The notes beneath the pieces are model-generated. The model did not search any database. It was given only the letters and a program-made list of their open reading frames with translations, and was not told where the DNA came from. From Actinomycetes bacterium (GTDB lineage: Bacteria; Actinomycetota; Acidimicrobiia; Acidimicrobiales; Acidimicrobiaceae): a stretch of 37,850 nucleotides of DNA. The stretch covers positions 1 to 37,850 of the forward strand of contig JAJYNL010000117.1 in NCBI GenBank assembly GCA_021786375.1, read 5' to 3'. The translations under genes were made by a program, and so were the position numbers. How positions within the stretch are numbered: position 1 is the stretch's first letter; every line of letters starts with the position of its first letter. This document shows positions 1 to 14,167 of the stretch, piece after piece.

Positions 1-142
1 TATGCCATATCTAGGTACTACAGTAGCACACCAAATGCCAAGAACATCCAGAACTTGTAATATCCCTAGTCAGAGGCGAACTTCTACATCCAGCCAAAGT
101 CGGATCTCAGGGCGTCGGATCAGCTAGCCAGGAAGGTCCCGC

Positions 143-1513: not shown

Positions 1514-1543
1514 TTGCATGCTTGGCGCGCCTGAGGCTATGCT
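1514..1543 (+). promoter_or_regulatory. Promoter of the leuA leader
   Basis: TTGCAT at 1514-1519 and TATGCT at 1538-1543, 18 bases apart, form a good sigma70-type promoter. The -35 hexamer is identical to that of the ilvB leader promoter. The -10 box ends 8 bases before the GTG at 1552 in the leader peptide frame, so transcription should start almost on that codon. Confidence 0.55.
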
Positions 1544-1545
1544 CT

Positions 1546-1590
1546 ATGCCAGTGACAACGCAGATCTTCACCGCGCTACTACTGACCTAA
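1546..1590 (+). CDS. leuL: Leucine leader peptide of the leuA attenuator
   Basis: A 14-codon frame encodes MPVTTQIFTALLLT and stops with TAA at 1588-1590. It holds three consecutive leucine codons (CTA CTA CTG), two of them CTA, at 1576-1584. It is followed at once by a hairpin and an intrinsic terminator before leuA. This is the classic design of a leucine attenuator: a ribosome stalled on Leu codons when charged tRNA-Leu is scarce keeps the terminator from forming. The start is uncertain. ATG 1546 has GAGG at 1533-1536 upstream, but that motif lies inside the promoter spacer. If the promoter at 1514-1543 is used, translation more likely starts without a leader at GTG 1552 and gives a 12-residue peptide. 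Too short for ordinary gene finders. Confidence 0.75.
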   Translation: MPVTTQIFTALLLT

Positions 1591-1592
1591 CA

Positions 1593-1618
1593 GCGAGCTC
1601 GCCAAAGAGCCAGCTCGC
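1593..1618 (+). promoter_or_regulatory. First hairpin of the leuA attenuator
   Basis: GCGAGCT at 1593-1599 pairs with AGCTCGC at 1612-1618. The stem begins just 3 bases after the stop codon of the leader peptide, so a ribosome at the stop or at the Leu codons would affect whether it folds. The 5' arm is also part of a perfect 10-base palindrome (1593-1602). I could not identify a convincing antiterminator pairing by eye. Confidence 0.5.
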
Positions 1619-1623
1619 CGACG

Positions 1624-1655
1624 CCTCCTGCTCCCAATGGGACAGGGGGTTTTTT
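1624..1655 (+). terminator. Intrinsic terminator (attenuator) ahead of leuA
   Basis: CCTCCTG (1624-1630) pairs with CAGGGGG (1643-1649), and TCCC (1632-1635) with GGGA (1639-1642), leaving one bulged C and a three-base loop. Six T follow at 1650-1655. It lies between the leader peptide and leuA, 51 bases before the leuA start, so it must be conditional for leuA to be expressed. Confidence 0.85.
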
Positions 1656-1706
1656 ATTTGTCCAGCCAAGGCGTGAACCGGATCTGCACACGGAGAAAGG
1701 CAACCA

Positions 1707-3266
1707 ATGGCGCAAGGCCAAGAACAAGAGAAGCTGATCATCTTCGACACCACACTTCGGGACGGCGAGCAGTCGCCTGGCATTTCCCTCGATGCCACCG
1801 AAAAGCTGGAAATCGCGGAGCAGCTCGCGCGCCTAAACGTCGACTACATCGAGGCCGGCTTCCCGGTTGCCAGCCAGGGGGACTTCGAAGCCGTACGGAT
1901 GATCGCCGAGCGAGTGGAAGGACCTGCCATCGCGGCGCTTTCACGCACTCACCTCTCGGACGTCGACCGCTGCTGGGAGGCGCTCAAGCCCGCGGCCAGG
2001 AAGAGGATCCACGTCTTCATCTCCACCTCGCCCAGCCACATGGAATCCATGCTCAAGATGACCGAAGCCCAGGTGCTGGCCGAAACCCGCGCCGGTGTAG
2101 CCCGCGCACGGGGATACACCGAAGACGTCGAGTTCTCGCCTCAGGACGCCACCCGCACGCCACTCGATTTCATGATCGAAGTACTGCAGGCCGCGGTCGA
2201 CTCCGGAGCGACGACCCTGAATGTCCCCGACACAGTCGGCTACGGGATACCTTGGGACTTCGGTGCCCTGATCGGCTATGTGCGCAAGAACGTCAGCGGG
2301 GACTACATGATCTCCACCCACTGTCACAACGACCTGGGGTTGGCCACCGCCAACTCCCTGGCCGGGGTCCAGGCAGGGGCGAGGCAGGTCGAGGTTTGCG
2401 TAAACGGACTTGGCGAGCGGGCCGGTAACGCCGCGCTTGAGGAGGTGGTGATGGCGGTGAAGATCCGCTCCGACATCTTCCAGGGCCTCACCACGCAGGT
2501 ACGGACCGAGGAGCTGGCACGCACCTCTCGGATGGTGGCCCGGCTGACCGGCTATCCGGTCCAGTACAACAAGGCGGTGGTCGGGCGCAACGCCTTCGCG
2601 CACGAGTCCGGAATCCACCAGCACGGGGTTCTGGCCGATCGCTCGACATATGAGATCATCGACGCCGAGAGCGTGGGGCAGAAGAGTTCCCAGATCGTGC
2701 TGGGCAAGCACTCCGGGCGCCACGCCTTCTCTGACACCTTGACCAAGATGGGCATCAACATCAAAGGTGACGCCCTGAACGCGGCCTTCACCCGCTTCAA
2801 GGAGCTGGCGGACCGCAAGATGGATATCACCGAGGCGGACCTCGAGGCGATCGTCGCCGAGGAGCTGGGCACCGTGGCCACCGACGCCTTCTCCCTGGAG
2901 GAACTCAAGGTTTCCGGCGGAACCGTGGGTACGCCCCAGGCGACCGTAGCCATTTCCTCGGCGGCGGGCCGGGTGGAAGCGACAGCCGAGGGCAACGGCA
3001 TGATCGATGCCGCGGGCCAGGCAATCCAGAAGGCGACTTCCATCAGCGCCAATCTGATCGGCTTCTCGGTCTCCTCGATAACGGGTGGAGTTGATGCAAT
3101 CGGCGACGTAGTTGTCCAGCTCGAATCCGATGGGGTAAAGGTCTCGGGCAAGGGGATCTCCACCGACGTGGTGGAGGCTTCTGCGCGCGCGTATCTGAAC
3201 GCCATCAATCGGCTGCAGCGCGCGCTGGTCCGCCGCGAGGTGGCCGAGCGCGAGGTCGGTCCCTGA
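1707..3266 (+). CDS. leuA: 2-isopropylmalate synthase LeuA
   Basis: LeuA condenses 2-oxoisovalerate with acetyl-CoA, the first committed step of leucine synthesis in the cytoplasm. The protein has 519 residues, the usual length of the bacterial LeuA type 1 form and shorter than the roughly 600-residue form of mycobacteria. The DTTLRDGEQSPG motif of the metal-binding active site is at residues 14-25, and the HCHNDLG metal-binding histidines are near residue 205. The C-terminal third (about 390-519) matches the leucine-sensing regulatory domain of the family. The start is supported by GGAGAAAGG just upstream. The gene is preceded by a leucine attenuator and followed by a long terminator hairpin, so it is probably transcribed alone and controlled both by attenuation and by feedback inhibition. 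Confidence 0.95.
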   Translation: MAQGQEQEKLIIFDTTLRDGEQSPGISLDATEKLEIAEQLARLNVDYIEAGFPVASQGDFEAVRMIAERVEGPAIAALSRTHLSDVDRCWEALKPAARKRIHVFISTSPSHMESMLKMTEAQVLAETRAGVARARGYTEDVEFSPQDATRTPLDFMIEVLQAAVDSGATTLNVPDTVGYGIPWDFGALIGYVRKNVSGDYMISTHCHNDLGLATANSLAGVQAGARQVEVCVNGLGERAGNAALEEVVMAVKIRSDIFQGLTTQVRTEELARTSRMVARLTGYPVQYNKAVVGRNAFAHESGIHQHGVLADRSTYEIIDAESVGQKSSQIVLGKHSGRHAFSDTLTKMGINIKGDALNAAFTRFKELADRKMDITEADLEAIVAEELGTVATDAFSLEELKVSGGTVGTPQATVAISSAAGRVEATAEGNGMIDAAGQAIQKATSISANLIGFSVSSITGGVDAIGDVVVQLESDGVKVSGKGISTDVVEASARAYLNAINRLQRALVRREVAEREVGP

Positions 3267-10584: not shown

Positions 10585-12192
<1,608 letters not shown>

Positions 12193-12196
<4 letters not shown>

Positions 12197-13917
12197 CGTG
12201 CACCCCCGTAACTTGGCCCAAGCACGATCTCGTCGTTGCTGGCCCCGGCAGGGACCATCGGGTATACCTTCTCGCCGGAGTCGATCCGGAACTCAATGAC
12301 CACCGGCCGGTCATTGATGTCGTTGGCCTTCTCGATGGCCGGCGCAACCTCTTCCGGCGCCTCCACGCGCAGGGCGACGCAACCCATCGCCTCTGCCCAC
12401 TTGACGTAGTCCGGAAGGTCAGGAGAGAGATAGACCTCGGAATATCGCTGGTCGTAGAACATCTCTTGCCACTGGCGGACCATCCCCAAGTAGGCGTTGT
12501 TGAGAAGTGCGATCTTCACGGGTATGCGCTCCGCGGATGCGGTGACCAGCTCCTGTGCGGTCATCTGGAAGCACCCGTCACCGTCGACGGCCCAAACCAC
12601 CTTGTCGGGCCTTCCCACCTTGGCACCGATGGAGGCGGGAACGGCATAGCCCATGGTCCCGAGTCCGCCGGAGTTGACCCATGCGTTCGGATGATCGAAG
12701 CGCCAGTACTGGGAGGCCCACATCTGATGCTGCCCGACTCCCGATGCCAGGATCGAGCCCTCGGGAGTCAGCGAAGAAAGAGTCTCGATGACGTACTGGG
12801 GCTTGAGACCGTTCCCGGATCCGTCGCGGTCATAGGAGAGCGGGTAGAGCTTCTGCCACTCGCGAATCCGAGAGATCCACGGGGCCAGGTCCGCCTGAAC
12901 CATCTCACCGGCCTCACCCTTGTCAAGGGCCTCGATAAGATCCTCGATGACGGAGCGCACGTCCCCGACGATGGGAATGTCGGCGTGACGTATCTTGGAG
13001 AGCTCCGCGGGGTCGATGTCGACGTGGATGACCTTTGCCTCGGGCGCGAACCCGGAGAGCTTGCCGGTGACCCGGTCGTCGAAACGTGCGCCAAGCGTAA
13101 CGAGAAGGTCCGACTTCTGCATGGCGGTCACCGCGCTGTAGTTGCCGTGCATTCCGGGCATCCCGAGACAGAGCGGGTGGCTGTCCGGGAAGGCTCCTCG
13201 CGCCATCAGGGTCGTCACGACCGGTATGCCGGTCTTCTCCGCCAAGGTGAGCAGTGCCCTGGAAGCTCCGGCGCGAATTACTCCGCCACCGACGTAAAGC
13301 ACCGGACGCCGCGCCTCCTTGATCATCCTGGCTGCGGCCTGGATCGAGCGGGGATGCCCCTTGGTGGTCGGCTTGAATCCGGGCAGGTCCACCGCGTCGG
13401 GCCAGTACCAGTCCATCATCTGGTTGCTGACGTCCTTGGGGACGTCAATGAGGACCGGCCCCGGCCGTCCGTTGGTCGCAACGTGGAAGGCCTCGGCAAC
13501 CACTTCGGGAATCTCCGCGGCGTCGGTTATCAGCCAGTTGTGCTTAGTGATGCTCATGGTGATGCCGGTGGTGTCGGCCTCCTGGAAGGCATCCGTGCCG
13601 ATGGAGGAGGTGGCGACCTGGCCGGTGATGACGACCATCGGGGTCGAGTCCATGTACGCATTCGCCAGCGGGGTAACGATATTGGTGGCAGCCGGACCCG
13701 AGGTCACCATCGCCACTCCCGGGCGATTTGTCACCTGTGCGTAGCCCTCGGCCATGTGGCCGGCTCCCTGCTCGTGACGGACGAGTATGTGCCGGATGGG
13801 CGAATCGATGATCGGATCGTAGACCGGCAGTATCGCTCCGCCGGGAAGTCCGAAGATCACCTCCACGCCTTGCATCTCGAGGCTCTTTATGAGGGCCTGT
13901 GCCCCAGTCAGTTTCAT
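12193..13917 (-). CDS. ilvB: Acetolactate synthase large (catalytic) subunit IlvB
   Basis: A ThDP-dependent enzyme joining two pyruvate molecules, or pyruvate and 2-oxobutyrate, in the first common step of valine, leucine and isoleucine synthesis. The 574-residue protein shows the catalytic glutamate region ([15 protein letters not shown]), the FAD-binding middle domain and the ThDP/metal motif [15 protein letters not shown] ending in LLNN. The lead position of the operon and the attenuator at 13979-14076 place the whole run ilvB-N-C-permease-ATPase under control by branched-chain aminoacyl-tRNA levels. Confidence 0.95.
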
Positions 13918-13978: not shown

Positions 13979-14002
13979 AAAAAAGCCTCCCGCTAGGGAG
14001 GC
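13979..14002 (-). terminator. Intrinsic terminator (attenuator) ahead of ilvB
   Basis: Read on the minus strand, GCCTCCC and GGGAGGC form a 7-base-pair stem with a 4-base loop, followed by six T (13984-13979). It lies between the branched-chain leader peptide and ilvB, about 60 bases before the ilvB start, so it must act conditionally. Confidence 0.85.
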
Positions 14003-14007
14003 AAAGC

Positions 14008-14036
14008 AGCGCCGCTGATAAACAGACCGCGGCGCT
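14008..14036 (-). promoter_or_regulatory. Leader hairpin of the ilv attenuator
   Basis: On the minus strand AGCGCCGC (14036-14029) pairs with GCGGCGCT (14015-14008) across a 13-base loop. The first arm overlaps the stop codon of the leader peptide, so a ribosome finishing the peptide covers it, while one stalled on the Leu/Val codons does not. This is the position expected for the sensing hairpin of an attenuator. In addition GCCTCTC in the leader coding region could pair with the 3' arm of the terminator. Confidence 0.55.
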
Positions 14037-14076
14037 ACTCGATCGTTACTACAACTAGAAGAGAGGCGCTTTTCAT
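14035..14076 (-). CDS. Branched-chain leader peptide of the ilvBNC attenuator
   Basis: A 13-codon frame on the minus strand encodes MKSASLLVVVTIE and stops at TAG (14037-14035). Residues 6-12 are Leu-Leu-Val-Val-Val-Thr-Ile, a run of the three end products plus threonine, the precursor of isoleucine. It is like the leader of the Corynebacterium ilvBNC attenuator, which carries a similar LVVVT core. The -10 box of the promoter ends 9 bases before the ATG, so the message has almost no 5' untranslated region and no ribosome binding site: the peptide is probably made from a leaderless transcript. Confidence 0.85.
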   Translation of the reverse strand: MKSASLLVVVTIE

Positions 14077-14085
14077 GTAGAGCAC

Positions 14086-14114
14086 ATCCTAATCGTCGGC
14101 CCCGGAGGATGCAA
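14086..14114 (-). promoter_or_regulatory. Promoter of the ilvBNC leader
   Basis: On the minus strand TTGCAT (14114-14109) and TAGGAT (14091-14086) are separated by exactly 17 bases, a near-ideal sigma70-type promoter. The -35 is identical to that before the leuA leader. Confidence 0.75.
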
Positions 14115-14120
14115 TACCGT

Positions 14121-14167
14121 CCTCCCGCGTTGCATGCACGGGAGGGCGGACCAGCCTAAAGGCTGGT
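14121..14167 (-). terminator. Two tandem hairpins at the end of ilvD
   Basis: ACCAGCC/GGCTGGT (14167-14161 with 14156-14150) spans the ilvD stop codon, and CGGGAGG/CCTCCCG (14145-14139 with 14127-14121) follows. Neither has a T-run, so they may act as weak or Rho-assisted terminators, or protect the 3' end. They separate ilvD from the ilvB promoter. Confidence 0.4.

Follow-up and report, generated by a model that had tools for sequence, protein, structure and literature searches.

The ilvB leader in the window and its homologues

How could a short leader control the ilvBNC operon when its two hairpins have no bases in common? This question is raised by the window, by which we mean the whole 37.85-kb stretch of DNA analysed here, from an Acidimicrobiia genome. 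The leader unit, read entirely from the minus strand, sits between ilvD and ilvB, ahead of ilvBNC, and the upstream ilvD, like the operon genes, is confirmed by Pfam. The elements that a sequence-only reading had named (a -10 box, 9 bases from there to an ATG, and two hairpins of which the second is a terminator with T6) are all present, on a strand which that reading left unstated. They are arranged as follows:

14109 to 14114 (-): -35-like TTGCAT, from reading the sequence
between TTGCAT and TAGGAT (-): spacer of 17 nt
14086 to 14091 (-): -10-like TAGGAT, 9 nt before the leader ATG
14076 to 14079 (-): predicted transcription start, placed from the -10 position (7-10 nt past the box, giving a 5' UTR of 0-3 nt)
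14035 to 14076 (-): leader ORF MKSASLLVVVTIE with its stop, 13 codons plus TAG (ATG at 14076, TAG at 14037-14035)
14047 to 14061 (-): control codons CTT CTA GTT GTA GTA (Leu-Leu-Val-Val-Val), the GTA codons being -5 and -4 from the stop
14004 to 14040 (-): H1 hairpin with a 12-bp outer stem and the stop codon within its 5' arm, from folding
13985 to 14002 (-): intrinsic terminator stem GCCTCCC-TAGC-GGGAGGC, beginning 1-3 nt past H1, from terminator scan and folding
13979 to 13984 (-): T6 tract
12193 to 13917 (-): ilvB, acetohydroxyacid synthase large subunit, start at 13917 (Pfam)
11612 to 12196 (-): ilvN, acetohydroxyacid synthase small subunit (Pfam)
10585 to 11640 (-): ilvC, ketol-acid reductoisomerase (Pfam)

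For comparison, the ilvB upstream regions are taken from 110 related loci and 60 more across the phylum, from which a rule that chooses the start codon without use of the promoter gives 93 distinct class-level leaders. The rule demands a terminator and branched-chain codons, so both are present in the set by construction; the results for the -10 box, the Shine-Dalgarno strings, the stop codon, GTA, H1 and the linker are independent of it. Because the 93 loci are phylogenetically related, the counts below are not independent events and are given with no P values. The best-named relatives are Acidimicrobiales and other Acidimicrobiia, and the leader peptide is retained in genus relatives. This comparison, together with the Pfam-confirmed genes, supports the original assignment of the unit as a branched-chain leader of ilvBNC.

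The next question is how distinctive the unit is. Defined mechanically, the unit as a whole matches once in the window (at 14076) and not at all in 40 Markov-simulated windows. A covariance model built from 64 ilvB leaders, the window leader among them, ranks the window leader top in the genome at 58.1 bits, with the next match at 20.8. The model recovers most of the class loci left out of its building and has matches in 119 of 149 class genomes. In an Rfam search, the best matches are far below the gathering score and none is above it.

Two abutting hairpins and the control they may exert

We turn to the two hairpins, both of which are found on folding the window leader, the second being detected by the terminator scan as well. 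H1 begins -6 to +4 nt from the first base of the stop codon in 93/93 leaders and folds at -19.5 kcal/mol on average (mean z of -4.0 against mononucleotide shuffles), and the gap from H1 to the terminator stem is 0-6 nt across the class leaders, with no shared bases. When the named structure is scored on a 64-sequence alignment, two-sided changes are seen in 8/8 H1 pairs and 4/8 terminator pairs, and the covariation totals 88 cells, where shuffles give 35 and slid controls no more than 33. Run on the MAFFT alignment, RNAalifold recovers the terminator only, because the linker length shifts H1. Pairing tests of own against other-species sequences show that the H1 arms and the terminator arms each favour their own partner. 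Among the 93 loci the ilvB terminators are of two kinds by sequence, 81 with CCTCCC/GGGAGG and 11 with CCCCTCG, and these hold steady across the class. The idea that the terminator CCTCCC is an anti-Shine-Dalgarno signal was rejected: the cimA copies described below carry GCCGCCC, so the design does not need CCTCCC.

Where, then, is the antiterminator? The unit had been called an attenuator, and the leader ORF and the terminator that this name implies are there; the conventional antiterminator/terminator switch is the part that does not stand. Pairing tests over 64 diverse leaders, and nascent-RNA folding, detect no upstream partner for the 5' arm of the terminator. This arm pairs with its own leader at -5.6 kcal/mol, with the leader of another species at -5.9 and with a shuffled leader at -7.9 (64 leaders), weaker than shuffled, as if mispairing were avoided. 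In the nascent RNA, with the ribosome at the control codons, its paired probability is mostly below 0.3. Two candidate helices were tried and rejected. In plain folding of the window leader, codons 2-6 pair with the U tract and the 3' arm of the terminator, but this pairing is lost in relatives and comes too late in transcription for an antiterminator; a protector helix between the control-codon region and either half of H1 pairs no better than between species. As no competitor for the terminator bases is found, we do not class the unit as a classical trp-type attenuator and regard it as an attenuator-like variant.

Folding of the leader in the presence of a ribosome was among the checks suggested along with the original claim. 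With the ribosome edge taken as 11-14 nt beyond the first base of the A-site codon, the modelled H1 folding energy remaining is 0.91-0.99 at codon -4, 0.48-0.91 at codon -3 and 0.08-0.11 at the stop, so that H1 is kept at the first position and lost at the last. In this model codon -4, where GTA concentrates, is the last stall position sparing H1. The terminator hardly responds: masking H1 takes its pair probability from 0.975 to 0.971. H1 and the terminator coexist, and thermodynamics alone yields no switch.

These results narrow the ways in which the leader could work. A ribosome halted at the stop codon does not reach as far as the terminator start, so any control by ribosome position must go through H1. 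Since H1 and the terminator share no bases, H1 must affect the terminator without overlap, and for starvation to turn the operon on, H1 must oppose it. Starvation is reported to do so in relatives (PMC11857589; PMC13236596).

We arrive at a reading to which we give a probability of about two in three, namely that the unit is a leaderless ribosome-mediated attenuator of ilvBNC in which H1 folds in front of a stalled ribosome and counteracts the terminator that it abuts. RNA polymerase would start at the leader AUG or within about 3 nt of it, and a ribosome would load on the bare 5' end, as the conserved geometry and the lack of a Shine-Dalgarno site suggest, and translate MKSASLLVVVTIE. When the GUA-reading Val-tRNA or Leu-tRNA is short, the A site of the stalled ribosome would hold codon -4 or one before it, the RNA beyond would stay free and H1 would fold. 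When charged tRNA is ample, the ribosome would reach the UAG inside H1 and, by the computed geometry, block H1; the terminator would then form and transcription stop. The weakest step is the link between the hairpins, where folded H1, 0-6 nt upstream, would hinder terminator closure sterically or kinetically in the RNA exit channel. The base of a closing terminator is deep in the exit channel of the polymerase. From this geometry, a rigid helix lying 0-6 nt upstream would need to enter the channel behind it and could block closure. If the abutting-hairpin idea is true, termination depends on the length of the H1-terminator linker; our literature search found no published test of antitermination by an abutting hairpin.

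Could H1 act in the opposite direction, or through timing? It might promote termination, or be a pause hairpin that keeps ribosome and polymerase in step, with regulation resting on timing. Pause hairpins do come before the terminators of classical trp-type attenuators, and H1 would sit some 10-14 nt before the terminator loop. We consider this improbable, though the best of the alternatives, for a termination-promoting H1 would turn the operon off under starvation, contrary to biosynthetic logic, and a pure pause leaves a stalled ribosome indistinguishable from an absent one.

Slightly less probable again is the classical trp-type arrangement, in which a stalled ribosome lets an antiterminator overlapping the terminator 5' arm form. 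It follows an identical ribosome-position logic, and such a model is proposed for C. glutamicum (PMC11857589) and M. tuberculosis (PMC13236596). It is at odds with the pairing energies given above, by which the terminator 5' arm does not prefer its own leader, with the low paired probability of this arm when the ribosome is at the control codons, and with the layout, in which H1 finishes ahead of the terminator start.

Control codons and copies before other genes

Do the codons of the leader carry a signal? GTA is present in 92/93 leaders and makes up 63% of their Val codons (175/277) versus 4.9% in ilvB. In 70/93 leaders it occupies codon -4, counted from the stop. The preference concerns Val: Ile and Thr codon use in the leaders tracks ilvB, and Leu is just mildly shifted. 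The tRNA genes detected in the genome include three for tRNA-Val, one each with anticodon TAC, CAC and GAC, and the isoacceptor expected to read GTA is the one with TAC. That selective tRNA charging plays a part in the control of attenuators is accepted theory, and we infer that it may be the reason for the choice of GTA. The stop codon is also unusual, being TAG in 75/93 leaders versus 4/86 ilvB genes. This preference is consistent with the stop codon serving as part of H1 (UAGCGC...GCGCUA), and in leaders with a TGA stop the 3' arm of H1 can change to match (e.g. L071).

A second leader unit is found before leuA:

1514 to 1656 (+): second leader unit, with TTGCAT at 1514-1519, TATGCT at 1538-1543 and a GTG at 1552 opening MTTQIFTALLLT, which ends in a stop
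1593 to 1618 (+): H1 of the leuA leader
1623 to 1650 (+): terminator of the leuA leader, with a T tract to about 1655
1707 to 3266 (+): leuA, downstream of the second leader unit

It reads TTGCAT-18-TATGCT-8-GTG, then MTTQIFTALLLT, then H1 and an abutting terminator, and is the second match of the covariance model in the genome, a weak one of 20.8 bits at 1564-1659 (+). The leuA genes of relatives are preceded by the same arrangement. A third weak match of the model (G000:C64) lacks such a leader.

Second matches occur in 20 other class genomes (L214-L233), before cimA, leuA or leuB. The cimA (citramalate synthase) leaders have Ile codon runs with peptides of the AIIIIL type, the leuA leaders have Leu codon runs (LLLLM), and those of leuB (3-isopropylmalate dehydrogenase) have Val and Ile codons (VVITT/AIIVIP). 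In each of the 20 the stop is TAG and 0-5 nt separate H1 from the terminator; the terminator sequences differ and are unrelated. The match of control codons to pathway across the copies is good evidence, at the level of sequence, that the sensing is real. The strict -10 pattern is found in only 8/20 of these leaders, so the leaderless geometry is less well supported in those copies.

It is also conceivable that H1 and the terminator simply form one strong two-hairpin terminator, behind a short ORF that is regulated otherwise or not at all, with no codon-dependent switch. Both hairpins are able to form together, double hairpins lying next to each other after stop codons are recognised as terminators (PMC8355165), and altering the regulatory codons in the ilvB leader of S. 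coelicolor is reported to leave regulation unaffected (Seliverstov et al., PMC1262725), which counts against codon sensing. We think this unlikely, at about one chance in ten and a little below the trp-type arrangement, since it leaves unexplained the pathway-matched codon runs, the Val-only preference for GTA, its placement at codon -4 and the stop inside H1. In favour of the main reading, a reporter of ilvB1 from M. tuberculosis in which LVVI was changed to AAAA gave low, unresponsive expression (PMC13236596).

Beyond the class, four ilvB leaders from other actinobacterial families (L150, L151, L153, L164) have an H1 that touches the terminator with no linker (e.g. ...GTACGCGC directly followed by GAACCTCCC), which suggests that the design may reach outside the class. 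A wider proposal can be put forward tentatively, with confidence well short of even: that Acidimicrobiia and some other actinobacterial lineages have a minimal, antiterminator-free attenuator, in which a ribosome-gated hairpin at the stop codon, 0-6 nt from the terminator, decides its closure in the exit channel, and which is reused before ilvB, leuA, cimA and leuB with matching control codons. It would be a conserved, apparently reused attenuator without the structure that textbooks deem essential.

The predicted leaderless start and known systems

We finally consider how the leader begins. The promoter had been described as excellent. The 17-nt spacer is as described, and 67/93 homologous leaders have the arrangement TTG-15..19-[TC]AnnnT-5..10-start, versus 10/700 other start codons; the adjective is overstated, for the matches to the E. 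coli consensus are 3/6 at -35 and 4/6 at -10, weak by that yardstick, and a 9-of-12 promoter scan lists no promoter at the ilvB leader. A [TC]AnnnT hexamer ending 5-10 nt before the leader start is present in 80/93 loci, compared with 62/836 (7%) of other ATG or GTG codons in the same regions. Its interior is variable in the homologues (TAAGCT, TATTGT, CACACT, CAGAAT), and the distance from its end to the start codon is kept at 5-10 nt. Shine-Dalgarno 5-mers occur at 0/93 leaders versus 42/86 ilvB genes, and 4-mers at 11/93 versus 71/86. A leaderless geometry, as the first reading proposed, is thus what the homologues retain, and a 5' UTR of about 0-3 nt, with predicted leaderless initiation conserved across the class, is strongly supported by these sequence comparisons. 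An in-frame GTG at 14085 was tried as an alternative start and rejected, being missing in the relative L003.

The sole Shine-Dalgarno-like string of the window leader is AGGA inside the -10 box (14090-14087, minus strand), and with the hexamer interior varying, it is no conserved ribosome-binding site. That transcription starts upstream and this AGGA, 10 nt before the ATG, recruits the ribosome is very improbable: TAGGAT is retained in several members of the genus, but other leaders keep T/C-A-nnn-T and not AGGA, and the 4-mer and 5-mer counts contrast sharply with those at ilvB.

Is a leaderless ilvB leader new? It had been presented as unusual, and that claim of novelty falls, because such leaders are already reported: in C. 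glutamicum transcription starts one nucleotide from the leader ATG (PMC11857589), and the ilvB leaders of C. diphtheriae (PMC5784534) and S. lividans (PMC8079986) are described as leaderless. The finding as first stated therefore adds a new lineage to a known mode of attenuation; our search found no paper on leaderless start sites in Acidimicrobiia. What seems undescribed, among the open-access papers that we searched, is the antiterminator-free design of two hairpins with the stop inside the first. Leader peptides and terminators of ilvB have been noted in Corynebacterium, Mycobacterium and Streptomyces, with the mode of regulation unclear (PMC1262725).

The closest comparison is ilvBNC of C. 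glutamicum (IlvL MTIIRLVVVTARRLP; Morbach et al. 2000 via PMC11857589), which shares the operon, an LVVVT-like run, a terminator with U tract and, as predicted here, the leaderless start. The model published for it has three hairpins and includes an antiterminator that overlaps the terminator, whereas here there are two that do not overlap, with the stop inside H1; the distance from leader ATG to ilvB is about 160 nt here and 292 there. In the Corynebacterium ilvB-II motif (PMC10272879), P1 spans the uORF and the antiterminator comes from the P1 loop; our first hairpin begins at the stop codon and the motif is not matched. The ilvL of S. lividans (MRTRILVLGKRVG), given with further leaderless leaders in PMC8079986, is a leaderless branched-chain leader before ilvB, as is predicted for ours, but it and the Streptomyces-like loci L134, L137 and L143 have a TGA stop, a long interval before the terminator and no compact H1-terminator pair. 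The ilvB1 uORF of M. tuberculosis (PMC13236596) resembles ours in its LVVI codons including GUA, whose change abolishes the response, and in its intrinsic terminator; it differs in the mutually exclusive antiterminator and terminator described there and in its UGA stop. Other short leaderless ORFs tied to attenuation of the genes behind them are the mycobacterial polycysteine ORFs (Canestrari 2020, as cited in PMC13236596), where the amino acid is Cys and the attenuation is cited as translational, and S. meliloti trpL, whose transcript begins at its ATG (PMC7298713), for a different amino acid.

One more hairpin lies between ilvD and the ilvB promoter. At 14120-14151 (-) the window reads CCTCCCG...CGGGAGG, with the same arms, CCTCCC/GGGAGG, as the ilvB terminator and no T run. 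It is not a clear intrinsic terminator, so transcripts from ilvD may read through into the leader, and such RNA would not be leaderless.
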